DNA from: Bacillota bacterium
Lineage (GTDB): Bacteria; Bacillota; Negativicutes; CTSoil-072
Direction of reading: 5' to 3'
Length of the DNA stretch: 64,000 nucleotides
Assembly (NCBI GenBank): GCA_017889545.1
Contig: JAGFZV010000002.1
Location: 186,001 to 250,000 of the forward strand
The translations under genes and the position numbers were made by a program. How positions within the stretch are numbered: position 1 is the first letter of the stretch; the number at the start of each line of letters is the position of its first letter. The notes beneath the pieces were generated by a model. It had not been told where the DNA came from, did no database searches, and saw only the letters and a program-made list of their open reading frames with translations. Below, in pieces: positions 4,577 through 12,133 of the stretch.

Positions 4577-4618
4577 TTGTTGCGCTCCTGTGAAATAATT
4601 GATGGTTGTTCTGACAAA

Positions 4619-4676
4619 AACGATGCTGTACCGCCTCCCATTCTGTTGTGAAAGTGGGCGGAGATACAACATCGTT
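4619..4676 (-). promoter_or_regulatory. Leader hairpin plus T run upstream of the EamA gene (possible attenuator)
   Basis: On the minus strand a long imperfect stem (CGATGTTGTA... pairing with ...TACAGCATCG, core CCGCCCA/TGGG-GGCGG) is followed at once by TTTTTG. It lies between an extended -10 element and the coding start, about 40 nt before the ATG. This is the geometry of a transcription attenuator or of a short terminated leader RNA. No known riboswitch consensus was recognised. Confidence 0.5.
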
Positions 4677-4703
4677 GACGTATCGTCGCGAATGAATGGT
4701 TTG

Positions 4704-4712
4704 ATTATACCA
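4704..4712 (-). promoter_or_regulatory. Extended -10 promoter for the EamA gene
   Basis: Minus strand TGGTATAAT, a full -10 with the TGn extension. The -35 region is poor. Transcription would start near 4697, just before the leader hairpin. Confidence 0.5.
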
Positions 4713-4781
4713 TATTTCCCAGCACTTAACTCATTCATTTGCAAAAATCGTATAGGGTAAACTGGGAGTAATTATTTCCCA

Positions 4782-4833
4782 AACAAGGATAGTTACAAAA
4801 CGTTACTAGTATCGTTTTGTAACTATCCTTGTT
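4782..4833. repeat. Perfect 21-bp inverted repeat with 10-nt spacer
   Basis: AACAAGGATAGTTACAAAACG (4782-4802) is mirrored exactly at 4813-4833. The inner parts of both arms are versions of the 15-bp palindrome found further downstream. It is the distal edge of the control region and could also act as a terminator-like hairpin, with TTTT in the right flank. Confidence 0.8.
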
Positions 4834-5032
4834 TTATCAAGAGTTAATACCGATTTGAAAAAAAGTGGTAACAAAATGATACTAAAATGCACCGATTCAT
4901 TTTCTTTAGAATGAAATCACTTGTAAATAACAAATGGAAGCATTCATTCCGTTTTCAAAATGTTACAACAGTTTCAAATTGAAAACGGAGTAAAAACAGT
5001 ATGATCAGTTTATCATTGTAACAAATTGAAAC
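4792..5032. promoter_or_regulatory. Array of 15-bp palindromes GTWWCAAWTTGWWAC, candidate enhancer sites for the sigma-54 activator
   Basis: Six sites were read by eye: 4792-4806, 4809-4823, 4868-4882, 4952-4966, 4971-4985 and 5018-5032. The last one, GTAACAAATTGAAAC, fits the consensus fully; the others differ at one or two positions. They lie about 60 to 310 bp upstream of a -24/-12 promoter, the usual position for bacterial enhancer-binding proteins, and such an activator is encoded in the same cluster at 9628. The 590-bp gap between the EamA and KAS III-like genes is otherwise AT-rich and non-coding. Confidence 0.65.
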
Positions 5033-5086
5033 AATAGAATGCGAATAAAAAATAAATTCAAATTATTTTACAAAAACGGGGTTATT

Positions 5087-5102
5087 TGGCTTCGTTTTTG
5101 CT
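5087..5102 (+). promoter_or_regulatory. Sigma-54 (-24/-12) promoter of the CoA-ester catabolic cluster
   Basis: TTGGCTTCGTTTTTGCT has the invariant GG (5088-5089) and GC (5100-5101) separated by exactly ten bases, matching the RpoN consensus TGGCAC-N5-TTGC. Transcription would start near 5113, leaving a leader of about 55 nt with a GAGGAGAGGG ribosome site. Confidence 0.75.
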
Positions 5103-5168
5103 TTATATAAGGGTGAGTTGCGCAACTCAGGGAAATCGGTGAATGCCGCCATGAGGAGAGGGTAATTG

Positions 5169-6197
5169 ATGAACAAACAGGATTTTCAGGTTGGGATTGT
5201 AGGCTGGGGACTTTATTTGCCGGAAAATTTCATTACTGCGGAAGAATTGTCACCGCAGATTCATATTCCGTCCCACATCATTCGTGAAAAAATGGGTTTT
5301 GACCGCAAACCGGTCGGTGGTCCGGAAGATCACTGTGTGGAAATGGGAACCAAAGCGGCCCGCCAATGCCTGAGCAAGACGGGCGTTGATCCGAAAGAGA
5401 TTGATTTGGTGTTATGGGCCGGTGAAGATTATAAAGAATATGTTTGTTGGACAGCCGGAATCGCCGTACAGGAAAATATTGGCGCTTCGAATGCCTGGGC
5501 TTTTGATGTCGCATTGCGTTGTGCCGGAACGCCGTTGGCGTTGAAGGTCGCGAAAGATTTGATGTTTGCCAACCCGGAGTTAAAGACGGTTATGGTTGTT
5601 GGTGGAAACACGAATTGTTATTTGGTGGATTACCGTTGTCCGGAGCAATCGTTTATGTTTGATATGGCGCCTGGAGGATTAGCCATGATTTTAAAACGGG
5701 ACTGGCCGGAAAATCGCATTTTGGAGAGCCATGTGATCACCGAAAGTTCCATGCATATGGATGTAATTGGCGCAAAAGGCGGATCCAAGAACCCGTTGGA
5801 AAAAGACGATGTGGAGAACAACGGCTGGAAGTTGATTATGCCGGATCCGGCCGGAATGAAGCAGCGTCTCGGCGATAAGTCATTGCCGGCATTTACTGGA
5901 GCGGTACGGGGTGCATTGGAACGAAGCGGACTAACACAAGAAGATATTGGCTACATTTGTCCGGTACACATCAATCCGAAGGGGCATAAAGCTATTTTAG
6001 CCGAGCTTGGGGTTGCCGAGGACAAGGGAGCCTATTTGCAGCAATACGGTCACTGCGGTCATGCTGATCAGATTATCGGTTTGGAGATGGGATTGAAGGA
6101 AGGAAAAATCACGGATGGTACTCATGTCGTTTTCCTTGGCGCCGGAACGGGATATGCATTTTCGGCGACTGTAATCCAATGGGGCGGAACCAAATAG
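5169..6197 (+). CDS. KAS III-like (FabH-type) condensing enzyme / thiolase-fold protein
   Basis: A 342-residue thiolase-superfamily protein similar in layout to 3-oxoacyl-ACP synthase III. The nucleophilic Cys is C118 in ALRCAG. A His-x-Asn motif follows (VHINP, H267). The position where FabH carries Asn in a GNTS-like motif reads GHCGH here (H295), so the triad appears to be Cys-His-His. As first gene behind a sigma-54 promoter, beside CoA-transferases and an acyl-CoA dehydrogenase, it more likely works on CoA esters in catabolism, for example as a thiolase or acyl transferase, than in fatty acid synthesis. ATG 5169 is used; a TTG three bases earlier is less likely. Confidence 0.8.
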   Translation: MNKQDFQVGIVGWGLYLPENFITAEELSPQIHIPSHIIREKMGFDRKPVGGPEDHCVEMGTKAARQCLSKTGVDPKEIDLVLWAGEDYKEYVCWTAGIAVQENIGASNAWAFDVALRCAGTPLALKVAKDLMFANPELKTVMVVGGNTNCYLVDYRCPEQSFMFDMAPGGLAMILKRDWPENRILESHVITESSMHMDVIGAKGGSKNPLEKDDVENNGWKLIMPDPAGMKQRLGDKSLPAFTGAVRGALERSGLTQEDIGYICPVHINPKGHKAILAELGVAEDKGAYLQQYGHCGHADQIIGLEMGLKEGKITDGTHVVFLGAGTGYAFSATVIQWGGTK

Positions 6198-6219
6198 GCT
6201 GAAGAAGGGAATGAAAACA

Positions 6220-7515
6220 ATGTCTTTTGCCGAGTTATATAGACAGAAGTTAATTGCTGCTGAAGAAGCAGTAAAAAAAGTTCATAGCGACGACGAAATT
6301 GTTGTTGGTCTTGCGGCATCGGAAGCACCGGCTTTATTAAGCAAACTGCATTGTGTGAAGGACCAGGTGCAGAATGTATCGGTATTAATGACACTCACCC
6401 TGGGAGAGTATGACTTTTATATGAAACCGGAGATGAAGGGCCATTTTCTCTTAAACACCTGGTATCATGGCGCAGGACCTCGTAAAGCGCATGATTATGG
6501 TACGGTATCCTATAATCCGACCCACTTGCACAATGCGATGACGAAGCGTCTTACCGTAAAGAAACCCAAAATATTTTTCGGAACTGCGGCACCGATGGAC
6601 CAACATGGATACTTGAATTTATCTTTGGGTCTGACGTATGAAAAAGAGGCGATTGAAAATGCGGATCTGGTGATTTTAGAGGTCAATGAAAATTTGCCTC
6701 GGACTCATGGCGACACGCATATTCATATCCGTGATGTGGATTATGTGGTTGAAAACACAAAACCGGTCCCTGCACTGCCGCCTGTCGAACCGACGGAAAA
6801 GGACAAGATTATTGGCCGGTATGTTGCAGACTTAGTGGAAGACGGGGCGACCATTCAACTTGGAATTGGCGGAATATCCAATGCGGCGGCGCTGTTTTTG
6901 ACCGAAAAAAAAGATTTGGGCGTTCACACGGAAATGCTGTCAGATCCGATTGTCGACCTGGTGGAAGCCGGGGTGATCACCGGAAAGCGCAAAACGCTGT
7001 GGAAGGACAAAATTGTGGCCACCTTCGCTTTTGGTTCCAAGAAAATCTATGACTTTATTGACAACAATCCATCGGTCGAAATTCACCGGGGCTGTGTGGT
7101 GAACGATCCCAATGTGGTGGCGCAAAACTATAAAATGACGTCCATTAATACGACGCTGCAGGTAGACTTGTTCGGTCAGTGCTGCTCGGAAGCGATTGGC
7201 AGCAGGCAATACAGCGGCAGCGGCGGAGCGGCGGATACTGCAATCGGAGCGCAGCGTTCATTGGGCGGAAAATCAATCGTTGCGTTGTACTCAACGGCGA
7301 AGAAAGATTCCATTTCCTCTATTGTTTCTTCGTTGAGCCCCGGTGCAGCTGTAACCATTGCCCGTAATGATGTGGATTATGTAGTAACGGAATATGGCGT
7401 CGCGCATCTGCGCAGCTGCAATGTGCGGGAGAGAGTGGAGAAGCTGATCAATATCGCTCATCCCAAATTCCGCGATGCATTGAGGGAAGAGGCGGACAGG
7501 TTGGCTATCTGGTAA
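6220..7515 (+). CDS. CoA-transferase / acetyl-CoA hydrolase family protein (4-hydroxybutyrate CoA-transferase-like), copy 1
   Basis: A 431-residue family I-type CoA-transferase of the acetyl-CoA hydrolase/4-hydroxybutyrate CoA-transferase group. GLGVHTEM-like sequence (LGVHTEMLSD) places a Glu where this family has its catalytic residue, and the glycine-rich IQLGIGGISN and FSGSGG-like (YSGSGGAAD) motifs are present, as is YVVTEYGVAHLR near the end. It would activate a carboxylic acid with CoA from acetyl-CoA or another ester. ATG 6220 has GAAGGG 10 nt upstream; the ATG at 6211 is too close to it. It lies 22 nt after the KAS III-like gene. Confidence 0.88.
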   Translation: MSFAELYRQKLIAAEEAVKKVHSDDEIVVGLAASEAPALLSKLHCVKDQVQNVSVLMTLTLGEYDFYMKPEMKGHFLLNTWYHGAGPRKAHDYGTVSYNPTHLHNAMTKRLTVKKPKIFFGTAAPMDQHGYLNLSLGLTYEKEAIENADLVILEVNENLPRTHGDTHIHIRDVDYVVENTKPVPALPPVEPTEKDKIIGRYVADLVEDGATIQLGIGGISNAAALFLTEKKDLGVHTEMLSDPIVDLVEAGVITGKRKTLWKDKIVATFAFGSKKIYDFIDNNPSVEIHRGCVVNDPNVVAQNYKMTSINTTLQVDLFGQCCSEAIGSRQYSGSGGAADTAIGAQRSLGGKSIVALYSTAKKDSISSIVSSLSPGAAVTIARNDVDYVVTEYGVAHLRSCNVRERVEKLINIAHPKFRDALREEADRLAIW

Positions 7516-7553
7516 TATGGCGCTCCAAAAACGGATATGAAAGGTGGGGGAAA

Positions 7554-8819
7554 ATGAAAACGAAGCATAAAGTGATATCGGTGGTTATGTTTTGTTATTT
7601 GGTTGCCTGGTTGGACCGTATGGCTATTAGTATGGCCCTTCCATCCATGATGAAAGAACTGAACATGTCGCCGACCATGGCTGGGACAATTATGAGCGCG
7701 TTTTTCCTCGGTTATGCCGCTTTCCAAATGCCAGGAGGGATTTTAAGCGACAAAATCGGTCCGCGCAAGGTGATTACCGGTGCGTTGGCTTGGTGGTCGG
7801 TCTTCACTGCTTTTACCGGCGCCTGTACGTCGATGACATCCATGATGGTTACCCGGTTCCTGTTCGGTATCGGGGAAGGGGTCTTCCCCGGTCCGGTATG
7901 GCGTGTGATTGGCAATTGGTTCAGTAAAAAAGACCGGGCTACAGCCAATTCATTCATTCTGACTACGGTGGCTTTGGGGCCGGCGATTACGCCGTTGATT
8001 GTAGCGCCAATCCTCATTGCGTACGGCTGGCGGGTTATGTTCTATATTCTTGGGCTGGCAGGCGCTGTTTGTGTCGTAGCTTCCTGGCTCTATATTGCCA
8101 ATACGCCGAAAGAACACAAACGGATTACACAGGCGGAATTGGATCAGCATAATGCTGAAGTTGCTGCCGATGCCTTAACTTCGGACAAGGTGATGGCCAA
8201 GGCTTCATTGGGTCAATTAATGGCTTCACCGGCAATCTGGATTTTGTTTATTAGCGTTTTAACGCTGACGATCACCATTTATGGCTACTTGACCTGGCTT
8301 CCGGCTTATCTTATCAAGGTGCGCGGGTTATCGCTGGCCAAAGCGGGCATCGCTGCCTCGATACCGTTTTTCTTCGCAGCAATCGGTATGGCAGTTTCTG
8401 GCTGGCTGTCGGACAAATATTTCCGTAATAACCGGAAATATTTGGTGATCGCTTCCGAGTTATTGGGCGCATTTTTCCTCTATCAATTCTTCAATGTCGC
8501 CGATATGGCGACAGCCCAAATCTATCAGTGTGTAGCTGCGTTCTTTCTGTATATGGCGTTGGGGGCGATATGGACCTTGCCGGTCCTGATGATCCCAGTG
8601 CATTTAATGGGTTCCGGATCTGGATTTGTGAACACAGGCGGTCAATTGGGCGGATTTTTGGCGCCGCTGGCGATTGGTTTTATGATTGATTATTTTGGCG
8701 GTGATTATGTGGCCGGTTTTAATGTGCTGATTGGATCATCCATCATTTCCGCCGCGATTGTGGCGCTGTTTGTCAAAGAAAAAAAGGAAGTTGTCAACGT
8801 GGTTGAAGAGACTGTCTAA
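7554..8819 (+). CDS. MFS transporter, anion:cation symporter (ACS) type
   Basis: A 421-residue major facilitator with about 12 transmembrane segments. Features include WLDRMAISMALP in helix 1, the motif GILSDKIGPRK between helices 2 and 3, and FLFGIGEGVFPGPVWR in helix 4, which is characteristic of ACS-family organic-anion carriers (hexuronate, phthalate, tartrate and similar). Its place inside the CoA-ester cluster suggests uptake of the organic acid that the cluster degrades. The substrate cannot be read from sequence. The ATG has a GGTGGGG ribosome site. Confidence 0.88.
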   Translation: MKTKHKVISVVMFCYLVAWLDRMAISMALPSMMKELNMSPTMAGTIMSAFFLGYAAFQMPGGILSDKIGPRKVITGALAWWSVFTAFTGACTSMTSMMVTRFLFGIGEGVFPGPVWRVIGNWFSKKDRATANSFILTTVALGPAITPLIVAPILIAYGWRVMFYILGLAGAVCVVASWLYIANTPKEHKRITQAELDQHNAEVAADALTSDKVMAKASLGQLMASPAIWILFISVLTLTITIYGYLTWLPAYLIKVRGLSLAKAGIAASIPFFFAAIGMAVSGWLSDKYFRNNRKYLVIASELLGAFFLYQFFNVADMATAQIYQCVAAFFLYMALGAIWTLPVLMIPVHLMGSGSGFVNTGGQLGGFLAPLAIGFMIDYFGGDYVAGFNVLIGSSIISAAIVALFVKEKKEVVNVVEETV

Positions 8820-8834
8820 TTCAATACGGTTAGT

Positions 8835-8871
8835 GACAAAGCTGCTGCCCAATCATAGGGGCAGCTTTGTC
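8835..8871 (+). other. Intercistronic hairpin
   Basis: The stem GACAAAGCTGC / GCAGCTTTGTC (11 bp, with a further inner pairing TGCCC/GGGGCA) has no T run. It sits between the transporter and flavoprotein genes and may be an mRNA processing or stability element rather than a terminator. Confidence 0.6.
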
Positions 8872-8961
8872 GCGGATTCTTGCAAATCTCCGGTAAGGAA
8901 AGAGGAAAGGCCTCTAGTAAGGCCGAAAATAATAAAAATTAAGGCGGAGGAGTTGGCTAAT

Positions 8962-9603
8962 ATGAAGGCAATTGCAATTTGCGGCTCGCAGCGGGAGAAT
9001 GGCAATACGGAATTCTTTTTAAAGACGATGCTGGAGGGGCTGTCGGAACAAGGAATTGAAACGGAGTTTATTTCTTTGCAGGACAAAACGATTATGCCCT
9101 GCAAAGGCTGTTATGGCTGTTTGGAGAAAAAACAATGCGTTATTGACGATGATTTTGAAGAAATTTTTGCCAAGATGATGACCGCGGATGGAATTATTGT
9201 CGGCTCGCCTGTGTATGTTGCCAGGGCATCGTCTCTTCTGTCGGCTTTGTTGGAACGGGCTACTTTCTCCGGGCGGGCTTCCGGCCGGATGTTATCCGGG
9301 AAGGTCGGCGCGCCGGTTACTGTGGCCAGGCGAACCGGGCAGGCATTTGCCTCGGCGGAATTGCTGCTCTGGTATTTTATCAATGACATTACTATTCCGG
9401 GGTCTATGTATTGGAATATCGGCGTTGCCGGTGCAAAGGGCGCCAAGGATGCTGCCAATGATTTGGAAGGCATTGAAATTATGAAATATTCGGCGGTCAA
9501 CATGGCTCATGTGATGAAGGCGTTGCAGGCTTACCGGCAGACAAAACCGGAAAAGCCGGTGGATCGCAACACGTTGTTTTTTGACCCCGAAGCGCAAAAG
9601 TAA
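8962..9603 (+). CDS. Iron-sulfur flavoprotein / NADPH-dependent FMN reductase family
   Basis: A 213-residue flavodoxin-fold protein. The N-terminus CGSQRENGNTE is the FMN phosphate-binding loop. The compact motif C-x2-C-x2-C-x5-C (CKGCYGCLEKKQC, about residues 46-58) matches the 4Fe-4S motif of Isf-type iron-sulfur flavoproteins. GSPVYVARASS is the second flavin loop. It could pass electrons to or from the acyl-CoA dehydrogenase or reduce a substrate double bond; this is inference from context. ATG 8962 has GGAGGAG upstream. The reading frame is open further upstream, inside the transporter gene, without a start signal. Confidence 0.85.
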   Translation: MKAIAICGSQRENGNTEFFLKTMLEGLSEQGIETEFISLQDKTIMPCKGCYGCLEKKQCVIDDDFEEIFAKMMTADGIIVGSPVYVARASSLLSALLERATFSGRASGRMLSGKVGAPVTVARRTGQAFASAELLLWYFINDITIPGSMYWNIGVAGAKGAKDAANDLEGIEIMKYSAVNMAHVMKALQAYRQTKPEKPVDRNTLFFDPEAQK

Positions 9604-9627
9604 GCATATGGCAGGAGGTTCGTATCC

Positions 9628-11019
9628 ATGGAGCAGGAAATAGCCAGACATGAAGCGTTGGAAGCCGTATTTGTTGAAAACGTTTTCCGTATTTTTGATC
9701 ATATGCCGATCGGTATTAGCTTTGTGGATGCCAGTGGGAATGTTGTTCGTTTGAACAAGACGATGCTGGATTATTTCGGTCTGACCCACGAAGTGGAAGG
9801 GCGGCATATCACGGAAATTGAGCCAACTTCCCGTTTGCCGGTGGTCATGAAGACCATGAAAGCGGAGGTGGCTCATCGCCACCGGTTTGCCAATGGGCGC
9901 GAAGCGATTGTTCACCGCATTCCGGTCATTGACAACGGAAGGCTGATTGGAGCGATCGGGATTATTTTGTTTGGCGATCTGCAGGATATCTACATGCTGG
10001 CGGAAAAAAACAAGATCCTGCTCCGTAAACTGGCTGACTATGAGAAAGAACAGCGGCTGTATAAAACAAAATACAGCCTGAATGATATTGTCGGCACAAG
10101 CGATACGATGAAAGCCTGTAAAGAACAGGCCAAACGGATCGCCCGTTCCAATTCCAACGTGCTGATTACCGGCGAGAGCGGAGTGGGCAAGGAATTATTC
10201 GCCCATGCGATCCATGATGAGAGCGCGCGCAGGGAAGGTCCTTTCGTGCGTGTGAACTGTGCAGCGATTCCCGAAACTTTGCTGGAATCGGAATTGTTTG
10301 GCTATGAAGAAGGGTCGTTTACCGGCGCGAAAAAAGGTGGACAACCCGGGAAATTTGAACTCGCTGACGGGGGAACCATTTTTCTGGATGAAATTGGCGA
10401 TATGCCCTATGTGATGCAGGCCAAATTATTGCGCGTATTGCAAGAACGGGAATTTGAACGTGTAGGCGGCAAGGATATTATTCGTGTAAATGTACGGGTG
10501 ATTTCAGCAACCAATTCGGATCTCGAGAATTTGATTTCCAGCGGCGGATTCCGCAGCGACTTATTTTATCGGTTGAATGTATTGGCGTTAAAAATCCCGC
10601 CTCTGCGAGAACGGCAGGGAGATATACCCAATCTGATTTATCACTTTCTGAGTGTTTTGTATCAGGAAAATGGCTTGTACGCCACGCTTTCACCGGAATG
10701 TATGGCAGTATTGTGCAAGTATGAGTGGCCCGGAAATATCCGGGAACTCCGGAATGTGGTGGAAAAAATTGATTTGGAGGCGGAAGGGAGAGTGGCCGAG
10801 CTGGCTGATATCCCGCAATATGTTTTACGCAGTATCAATATTAAGAAAGTGCGGGTGTCGCCGGCAGCCGGTTTGGTTTCGGTATTGGAACGGGTGGAAG
10901 CAGAAGAAATCAAGCGGGCGATTGATTTGTGCGGCGGCAATAAAATCAAAGCGGCGGAATATCTGCAGATTCCCAAGGTTCGTCTATATCGAAAAGTAAA
11001 ACGTTATAAAATTGATTAA
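9628..11019 (+). CDS. Sigma-54-dependent transcriptional activator (PAS, AAA+, Fis-type HTH)
   Basis: A 463-residue bacterial enhancer-binding protein. A PAS-like sensor covers about residues 15-120. The AAA+ domain has Walker A GESGVGKE (182-189), the sigma-54 contact loop GSFTGA (229-234) and Walker [10 protein letters not shown] (250-258). The C-terminus holds a Fis-type helix-turn-helix ([20 protein letters not shown]). It lies within the cluster preceded by a -24/-12 promoter and repeated palindromes, so it is the likely activator of that promoter. The PAS domain suggests an intracellular ligand, possibly the substrate or its CoA ester. No receiver domain is present, so it is not a phosphorelay regulator. 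Confidence 0.95.
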
Positions 11020-11045
11020 AATTCAAAAAATTCCATAAACTATGA

Positions 11046-11051
11046 TATAAT
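11046..11051 (+). promoter_or_regulatory. Possible sigma-A -10 element for the small membrane peptide gene
   Basis: TATAAT follows the activator stop codon by 26 nt and precedes the peptide's GGGAGG by about 20 nt. The -35 region (TTCAAA near 11022) is weak. Confidence 0.4.
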
Positions 11052-11084
11052 ATGAGTTGAGATTGCAAAAAGGGAGGAATCGTT

Positions 11085-11213
11085 TTGGAAACGAAAACTT
11101 TCGCTTTTCATGCCAATCATATGCTCATTGCAAATTTAATGGCGGCATTGGGGCTGTTTGCTATTTTTCTGCCGGAAATTATTGAATCGTGTGGTAACAG
11201 AGATCGTTGCTGA
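11085..11213 (+). CDS. Small single-span membrane peptide (42 aa)
   Basis: A 42-codon reading frame starting at TTG, with GGGAGG 8 nt upstream and ending inside the left arm of a strong terminator. The product begins METKTFAFHA and has a hydrophobic stretch (about residues 13-33, MLIANLMAALGLFAIF) that could span the membrane, then a short polar tail with two Cys. I know no family for it. The signals around it (-10 box, ribosome site, terminator) support expression. It lies between the activator gene and the isomerase gene. Confidence 0.5.
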   Translation: METKTFAFHANHMLIANLMAALGLFAIFLPEIIESCGNRDRC

Positions 11214-11240
11214 AGCAATGGAAGTCTCTGTTTTTTTTTG
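11196..11240 (+). terminator. Rho-independent terminator after the small peptide gene
   Basis: The outer stem AACAGAGA / TCTCTGTT with an inner TTGC-TGAA-GCAA hairpin is followed by nine T residues. It separates the activator and peptide genes from the downstream isomerase gene, so the latter genes may need read-through or their own promoter. Confidence 0.85.
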
Positions 11241-11350
11241 AAATTGTACGCAATAATGATCGTCGTGTTTTTCAAGCAATCGTTCTGCCAATCGGAAAGA
11301 GGTGGTGAAAAGCATAGTCCCTGCAAAAAAAATAGTAGGAGGGGAATTGT

Positions 11351-12133
11351 ATGGGAGAAAAAGCGGTATTATTTGAAAAAAGCGGAGGTATAGCCACGAT
11401 CACGCTGAACAGGCCGGAGGCCATGAATTCCATGAACCAGGCGTTGGTCGATGATTGGATCGAAGCTTTGGCGTTGGCACAAAAAGATTCTGAGGTCAGG
11501 GCAGTTGTCATTACCGGCAGTGGAAAAGCATTTTGCGCCGGCGGCGATTTATTCTACCTTGCAAGTCTTAAGGAACCGATTGCCGCCCGTAAGTTTATTG
11601 AACAGGCCGGTACAATCATCAATGGCATTATGGGGATGGATAAACCGGTGATTGCCATGGTCAATGGCGTAGCTGCCGGGGCTGCTTTTAATATTGCTTT
11701 GGCTTGCGATATTGTTTTCTGTGCAAAATCAGCGCGTTTTGCCCAGAGTTTCATTAAGGTGGGGCTAGTTCCCGACTGCGGCGGATTGTACCTTTTGTCA
11801 AGGGTCGTTGGGATGCATAAAGCGAAGGAATTGATGTTTACAGCGGATTTAATCGATGCGGATACCGCTTTGCAGCTGGGAATTGTCAATCAGGTGGTTG
11901 AGCCTGAAGTACTTGCAGCTGTGACCTATGCGTTTGCAGAGCGAATGGTGAATGCAGCGCCGGTTGCTTTGGGCATGATCAAAAAAATGATCAATCGCAG
12001 CGGCAATCTTGACTTGGAGAGCACGTTGGAATTTGAGGCGGATATGCAAACGATTTGCATGCAGACTTCTGATCATCAGGAAGGTGTAAAAGCGTTTAAG
12101 GAAAAACGGGCGCCTGTATTTAAAGGACAGTAA
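11351..12133 (+). CDS. Enoyl-CoA hydratase/isomerase family protein, PaaG-like isomerase
   Basis: A 260-residue crotonase-fold protein. The oxyanion-hole motif FCAGGDL (61-67) and GVAAGAAFNIALACD are present. Both glutamates required by classical enoyl-CoA hydratases are replaced (N114 and F134 at their positions), while an Asp (D142) sits in GLVPDCGG, the arrangement of PaaG-type enoyl-CoA isomerases. It therefore probably shifts a double bond or rearranges a ring-derived CoA ester and does not add water. AGGAGGGG precedes the ATG. It is followed by a second CoA-transferase gene. Confidence 0.85.
   Translation: MGEKAVLFEKSGGIATITLNRPEAMNSMNQALVDDWIEALALAQKDSEVRAVVITGSGKAFCAGGDLFYLASLKEPIAARKFIEQAGTIINGIMGMDKPVIAMVNGVAAGAAFNIALACDIVFCAKSARFAQSFIKVGLVPDCGGLYLLSRVVGMHKAKELMFTADLIDADTALQLGIVNQVVEPEVLAAVTYAFAERMVNAAPVALGMIKKMINRSGNLDLESTLEFEADMQTICMQTSDHQEGVKAFKEKRAPVFKGQ

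Follow-up and report, generated by a model that had tools for sequence, protein, structure and literature searches.

A conserved, probable operator array and a start-site palindrome at the predicted sigma-54 promoter of a putative organic-acid operon in a Negativicutes genome

How is the small gene cluster that begins at position 5169 of this stretch switched on, and which protein reads the palindromes that are repeated in front of it? The window, meaning the whole 64 kb of DNA analysed here, is part of genome G000 (3.27 Mb, 50 contigs, 96% complete); a porin-like frame of Gram-negative type, together with the relatives, makes the Negativicutes its probable class. An earlier note had drawn attention to six palindromes located upstream of a -24/-12 promoter and had proposed that they form a new operator for an enhancer-binding protein. 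Sequence comparisons make it likely that this stretch of upstream DNA controls a small organic-acid operon, in which the activator encoded at 9628 would bind an array of GTWACAAAAYGWWAC sites and open the sigma-54 RNA polymerase. They also point to a second element, a palindrome at the predicted transcription start, which may be read by something else.

The promoter itself is TTGGCTTCGTTTTTGCT (5086..5102, plus strand). It contains a -24 box (TTGGC) and a -12 box (TTGC), which together span 5086..5101. Within them, the GG of the GG-N10-GC motif occupies 5088-5089 and the GC 5100-5101 with ten bases in between, confirming the exact spacing (5088-5101) that had been claimed. Both boxes are invariant in an alignment of three genomes, comprising the window and its relatives G063 and G021. 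The predicted transcription start is 5113 (plus strand), as inferred from a distance of 12 nt past the -12 C. In the whole genome, TTGGC-N7-TTGC-W is found 67 times, against 23 for the control. Transcription from a sigma-A promoter, the alternative that had been raised, is not favoured by a sigma-A-type scan of 4600-5168, which gave no match above 9/12; over 4600-11500 the scan gave 14 matches against 11.2 expected. The best sigma-A-like promoter of that larger interval, at 11022-11051 (TTCAAA-18-TATAAT with a TG, 10/12), lies directly after the activator gene and perhaps serves the downstream acyl-CoA genes. An inverted repeat followed by a T run at 5071-5100 (CAAAAACG..CGTTTTTG) resembles a terminator and overlaps the -24/-12 element. 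In G063 (L057, near 10775-10750) TGTGCCA..TGGCACA followed by six T overlaps the -24/-12 in the same manner with other letters; because the sequence is not conserved, we take the terminator-like element to be due to chance.

Five genes follow on one strand (5169-11019, all plus). They encode a KASIII-like 3-oxoacyl-ACP synthase (5169..6197; NF005308, 406.5 bits for a cut-off of 315), a CoA-transferase assigned by family matches to the acetyl-CoA hydrolase/transferase family (6211..7515), an MFS transporter whose best NCBIfam matches are organic-anion transporters, under their cut-offs (7554..8819), a flavoprotein that matches the NADPH-dependent FMN reductase family (8959..9603) and a sigma-54 activator composed, according to Pfam, of PAS, AAA+ (GSFTGA) and Fis HTH domains (9628..11019), which is the likely operator binder. 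The occurrence of such an activator in the same conserved cluster, already pointed out in the earlier note, is well founded: its matches to Sigma54_activat (PF00158, 244.7 bits) and to the Fis-type DNA-binding domain HTH_8 (38.3 bits, cut-off 22) are both well above the cut-offs. The PAS matches are close to theirs (PAS_10, 24.2 vs 22.1; PAS_8, 22 vs 21.8), with PAS_9 and PAS just under. The GAFTGA-loop motif reads GSFTGA in the window activator and GAFTGA in those of G063 and G021. The KASIII of the window and those of six relatives' loci (L057, L058 and L089-L092, in frames picked by that motif) carry a YGH-x-G motif, of which the YGH presumably stands at the place of the active-site Asn motif of FabH, the Asn appearing to be His. 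This suggests that the KASIII-like protein has a Cys-His-His site.

Palindromes are crowded upstream of this promoter. At two mismatches or fewer, GTWWCAAWTTGWWAC has 9 matches in the 64 kb against 1.86 expected (100 shuffles, largest 5, none reaching nine), and six of the nine are packed into the 241 bases of 4792-5032. This loose pattern has 108 matches per strand in the genome against 83 for the control, so it is the clustering of the sites, not their count, that matters. One of the six is perfect (5018), two have one mismatch (4868 and 4971) and three have two (4792, 4809 and 4952); GTWWCAAWTTGWWAC, the consensus first put forward, is therefore not the best one. A better consensus, GTWACAAAAYGWWAC, was obtained from orthologous promoters; the genome contains it exactly only three times, each time within the array (4792+, 4809-, 4868+). 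There is no genome-wide enrichment of GTWACAAAAYGWWAC at up to two mismatches (57 and 54 matches, control 80 and 108), nor of the degenerate consensus GKWRCAAAAYGWWAC at up to one (17 and 12, control 22 and 21). Seven matches to GTWACAAAAYGWWAC have a single mismatch, site 5018 being one; inspection of the other six (L096-L101) led to no second target being accepted. Frames of 249-601 codons enclose four of them (L096-L099), L100 sits on the border of a 320-codon frame and L101 is just 5' of a 332-codon frame. L101 is the sole outside match followed by a GG-N10-GC within 300 bp (about 130 bp downstream), and this motif, which falls inside the 332-codon frame, is probably due to chance.

To rank the sites we used a forward matrix built from nine sites of G063, G021 and G430, chosen by eye. 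When run over all window positions, it places 4868, 5018, 4809 and 4792 at ranks 1, 2, 3 and 4, and 4952 and 4971 at ranks 15 and 35. The array is four strong sites and two weak ones, not six equal ones. With centres counted from the predicted start at 5113, the strong sites are operator 1 (GTTACAAAACGTTAC, 4792..4806, plus strand, -314), operator 2 (GTTACAAAACGATAC, 4809..4823, minus strand, -297), operator 3 (GTAACAAAATGATAC, 4868..4882, plus strand, -238) and operator 6 (GTAACAAATTGAAAC, 5018..5032, plus strand, -88, compared with -90 in G063). The weak, operator-like sites are TTTTCAAAATGTTAC (4952..4966, plus strand, -154), which none of the listed G063 sites matches, and GTTTCAAATTGAAAA (4971..4985, no strand assigned, -135), whose place at -135 is taken in G063 by a strong site. 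The Rfam matches found at 4761-4996 were all under gathering scores.

Operators 1 and 2 need to be considered together. Each occupies the inner part of one arm of a 54-bp inverted repeat (4781..4834, no strand, 26/27 pairs), the two standing head to head around CTAG. As they form one inverted repeat, the six copies are not independent: the array of six GTWWCAAWTTGWWAC-like sites does exist, but with four strong members, two of which belong to a single repeat. G063 keeps these operators as a pair, with an equal spacing of 17 bp and 14/16 inner pairs; the outer arms are not kept there (16/27 pairs). In the window, the outer arms (AAACAAGGATA) extend past the operators.

Close relatives of the cluster are few. 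Close orthologues of the activator are present in two of 100 relatives, G063 (79%) and G021 (72%), the next being at 49%, and KASIII proteins at least 72% identical are found in three of 380 genomes of the class, G000 included, the next being at 41%. G063 keeps all five genes (KASIII 72%, CoA-transferase 76%, MFS 77%, flavoprotein 71%, activator 79%) and G021 four of the five, a sodium:solute symporter replacing the MFS transporter. Among the five conserved genes, the activator comes last both in the window and in G021, and fourth in G063, where it precedes the flavoprotein, an order opposite to that of the window. The genes that lie downstream in the window (enoyl-CoA hydratase, a separate second CoA-transferase, acyl-CoA dehydrogenase and a carbonic-anhydrase-like gene) were not found in the 15-16 kb stretches of G063 and G021.

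Operator sites and the -24/-12 element recur at the orthologous promoters of both genomes. The centres are at -300, -283, -227, -135 and -90 in G063, compared with -314, -297, -238, -154, -135 and -88 in the window. G021 has two sites only, at -203 and -145, each one mismatch away from GKWRCAAAAYGWWAC; its one exact consensus match lies elsewhere, inside a reading frame. Because the nine sites of the forward matrix were picked by eye, a reverse matrix made from the six window sites is the cleaner test. In the 16-kb locus of G063 (L057), the eight highest scores of this matrix all fall in the orthologous promoter, and its ranks 1 and 3 in G021 (L058) and rank 2 in G430 (L090) are at the promoter. 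The best eight scores of L089 and L091 include none in the promoter regions inspected, and in L092 only the eighth-best score (9.7 bits) is in the promoter region.

A wider comparison covered 398 genomes from across the phylum; besides those already named, 16 encode an activator at E 1e-125 or better and at most 57% identity. Five of these neighbourhoods were opened (G625, G750, G430, G572 and G501), and four contain both KASIII and the CoA-transferase: G625 and G750 (activator 57%), G430 and G572 (activator 49%). G501, without KASIII and this CoA-transferase, was dropped, and nine distant activators (32-52% identity) from a scan of the genome collection were not taken into the comparison. G430 has two sites 18 bp apart (-245 and -227). 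No clear sites were seen in the sigma-54 promoter regions of G625, G750 and G572 (L089, L092 and L091), with one possible site each in G625 and G750 (GTAGCGAAAAGCTAC at -223 and -222). The palindromes are thus conserved upstream of the clusters of G063, G021 and, more distantly, G430, but not clearly beyond, and the activator is not always accompanied by the operator. The KASIII paralogues of G063, G086 and G032 (35-41%) have no -24/-12 element in the 660 bases inspected and no match to the operator or to TTGCGCAA in their loci.

The four related clusters also contain frames for a branched-chain-type ABC transporter and an alpha/beta-hydrolase, identified by eye. The importer found near the KASIII/CoA-transferase pair is therefore of the MFS, the sodium:solute symporter or (by eye) the branched-chain ABC type depending on the genome, and the pathway seems to swap its importer. 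Because three transporter types accompany the same pair, we infer that the substrate of the operon is an organic acid.

Could the array be bound by a regulator other than the 9628 protein, either another activator of the genome or a factor unrelated to sigma-54? The genome has 34 stretches that match PF00158 in its 3.27 Mb, a large set of which one is inside the window interval, and three of the related clusters (G625, G750 and G572) have this type of activator without clear sites. We nevertheless consider such a regulator improbable because (i), the sites are arrayed before a -24/-12 element in a conserved cluster, (ii), no sigma-54 activator other than the 9628 protein was found in the window and (iii), exact GTWACAAAAYGWWAC sites occur nowhere else in this 96% complete genome. 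That the array is a set of chance matches is hardly credible: the region is A/T-rich and two of the six sites are weak, but no shuffle of the 100 reached nine matches and the sites are conserved at near-equal positions in G063.

We thus favour binding by the 9628 protein and propose the following sequence of events. The activator would sense a metabolite via its PAS domain and bind, presumably as dimers, to the GTWACAAAAYGWWAC sites located about 90-315 bp 5' of the start, the outermost two being bound as a head-to-head pair. By analogy with its family, DNA looping and ATP hydrolysis would then open the sigma-54 RNA polymerase at 5086-5101. As this promoter stands at the head of a unit of genes on one strand to which the activator gene belongs, the activator would probably raise its own level and the circuit would be self-amplifying.

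By comparison, this system fits the known picture of activator regulons in Clostridiales, where Nie et al. (2019) describe 39 activator groups with UAS motifs (PMC6615313). As presented there, 170 of 263 activators have a single target operon and most UAS are 100-250 bp upstream of a TTGGCATNNNNNTTGCT promoter. Like the window activator, these are PAS-bearing one-component proteins with Fis-type domains, encoded mostly near their target and often served by several UAS, and GSFTGA is one of the loop variants named in that paper. A private operator for each PAS/AAA+/Fis activator being common in that account (PMC6615313), the claim of a new operator was overstated. The targets described include the cotX/cotY and gntT operons, and Table 1 of the paper shows no KASIII - CoA-transferase - MFS - flavoprotein unit such as that of the window. 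The commonest UAS class there, TGT-N10-12-ACA, describes one of the four strong window sites (5018, TGT-N11-ACA); the others read AGT..ACT (two) or GGT..ACT (one), and both G430 sites fit the class. The window operator may equal one of the 15 distinct motifs given in PMC6615313.

Individual systems show partial likenesses. AdhR of Clostridium beijerinckii, which acts on adhA1 and adhA2, is described as binding by its HTH domain to three UAS 5' of a -24/-12 promoter, the loss of any one severely impairing activity (PMC7017808). It differs from the window activator by its GAF sensor and its targets (PMC7017808), and its UAS are of the TGT-N10-12-ACA class according to PMC6615313. Among the NCBIfam families, PrdR (NF041552) matches the activator best (457.8 bits, under the cut-off of 795), but the window unit has no proline reductase genes. 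CbrB of Pseudomonas putida is a response regulator. Its subsites TGTTAC and GTAACA, as reported, resemble the window half sites, but there are three of them, otherwise arranged and with a relaxed consensus (PMC6296734). Literature searches for the four operator 15-mers and two family names, and for sigma54, enhancer and Negativicutes in combination, returned no paper.

The activator may not be the only input. A second element, absent from the earlier note, is located at the predicted start: GAGTTGCGCAACTC (5115..5128, no strand) is a palindrome of 14 bp, symmetric over 5114-5129. All 14 letters, including the central GCGC, are identical in the promoters of G000, G063 and G021, which belong to three different families. 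The palindrome lies 13 (window), 13 (G063) and 14 nt (G021) past the -12 C, and would thus begin at +3, +3 and +4, respectively, if transcription begins 12 nt past that C. Aligning the promoters gives 416 non-coding columns, 88 of them invariant, and the invariant runs of at least four are CAAA, TTGGC, TTGC and GAGTTGCGCAACTC, the last being the longest (14). Shuffling these columns 100000 times never produced a run of 14, although the procedure ignores local clustering of conservation. The flanks vary yet stay symmetric (T..A in the window, AATC..GATT in G063, AT..AT in G021). Exact copies were found in four of the 380 class genomes, one copy in each: three are the promoters discussed here and the fourth, in G271, was set aside as it is inside a 499-codon open frame. 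These alignments show GAGTTGCGCAACTC to be strongly constrained in sequence, and it probably contributes a second level of control that is specific to this promoter.

Copies of GAGTTGCGCAACTC with up to two mismatches, the exact one included, number 5 in G000 (control 13) and 13 in G063 (control 16); G021 alone has an excess (16, control 5). The two near copies inspected, L060 (G000) and L153 (G021), are both inside reading frames. The TTGCGCAA core is absent from the related-cluster loci of G625, G750, G430 and G572. After any -24/-12 element, this core is found at 26 places in 24 of the 380 class genomes. In the 20 places measured, an arm longer than 6 is seen only in G063 (arm 11) and in the window (arm 8), and of the six places outside those 20, only G021 was read by other means. 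The control for this count (2 matches) was not taken as a null because it is a CpG-rich string read backwards. Among all 67 TTGGC-N7-TTGC-W matches of the genome, only the window promoter and L124 have a palindrome arm longer than 4 at the start. L124 (1501-1545) has TTGGC-N7-TTGCA and, beyond it at roughly the window distance, the palindrome TATTTCCCGGGAAATA, but it is inside ksgA and we regard it as a coincidence. Rfam has nothing at the position of the palindrome, and literature searches for GAGTTGCGCAACTC, which returned only irrelevant 10- or 12-letter parts, and for start-site palindromes at sigma-54 promoters found nothing relevant.

What, then, would read the palindrome? We give about an even chance to a dedicated repressor, encoded by an unlinked gene, which would use GAGTTGCGCAACTC as its operator and block the sigma-54 RNA polymerase at the start, as a second input to the operon. 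For LacI-type repressors, even palindromes centred on CG are typical. The identity of all 14 letters across three families, the shuffles and the near-constant spacing from the -12 C all argue for a DNA operator; on the other side, each genome has one exact copy, near copies are not in excess in G000 and G063, no repressor gene is among the five conserved genes and no relevant paper containing the sequence was found. It is possible, with a lower probability, that the palindrome acts as RNA, by forming at the extreme 5' end of the message a GCGC-looped hairpin that would stabilise the message or be bound by a protein. The stem would indeed begin 0-1 nt from the 5' end if the start is 12 nt past the -12 C, and the predicted folds, of 6, 9 and 7 pairs, have energies of -4.7, -9.3 and -6.0 kcal/mol with RNA starts chosen by us, the 9 pairs of G063 requiring a start 2 nt earlier (otherwise 7). 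The outer pairs vary but stay paired; such changed but symmetric flanks fit either a DNA operator or an RNA hairpin. The identity of all 14 letters, loop included, exceeds what a plain stem needs, the only other long arm among the genome's -24/-12 matches is the one inside ksgA, and Rfam recognises nothing there. Since stem and loop letters are fully identical, we favour a reader of sequence, and a DNA operator is somewhat likelier than an RNA hairpin.

Two inputs to one sigma-54 promoter have been described for the cel operon of Bacillus thuringiensis, which according to the report has three predicted UAS, two of them shown to matter singly, and a site for a second regulator (PMC10864463). 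There, the activator CelR is of the PRD type, unlike the window activator, and the additional regulator is CcpA, which binds a cre (PMC10864463). It is tempting to speculate, though we hold it rather unlikely as a whole, that with GAGTTGCGCAACTC enhancer-dependent transcription has acquired a second gate of a new kind. This single-copy element, recognised by a dedicated repressor or working as an RNA hairpin at the 5' terminus, would veto or time an operon that is in other respects run by its own self-amplifying activator. With this analysis, an uncharacterised activator gains a proposed operator consensus and a likely target operon, and the inducer of this regulator would point to the substrate of the KASIII/CoA-transferase pathway. 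The palindrome at the start provides, in addition, a sharply defined and easily tested element.
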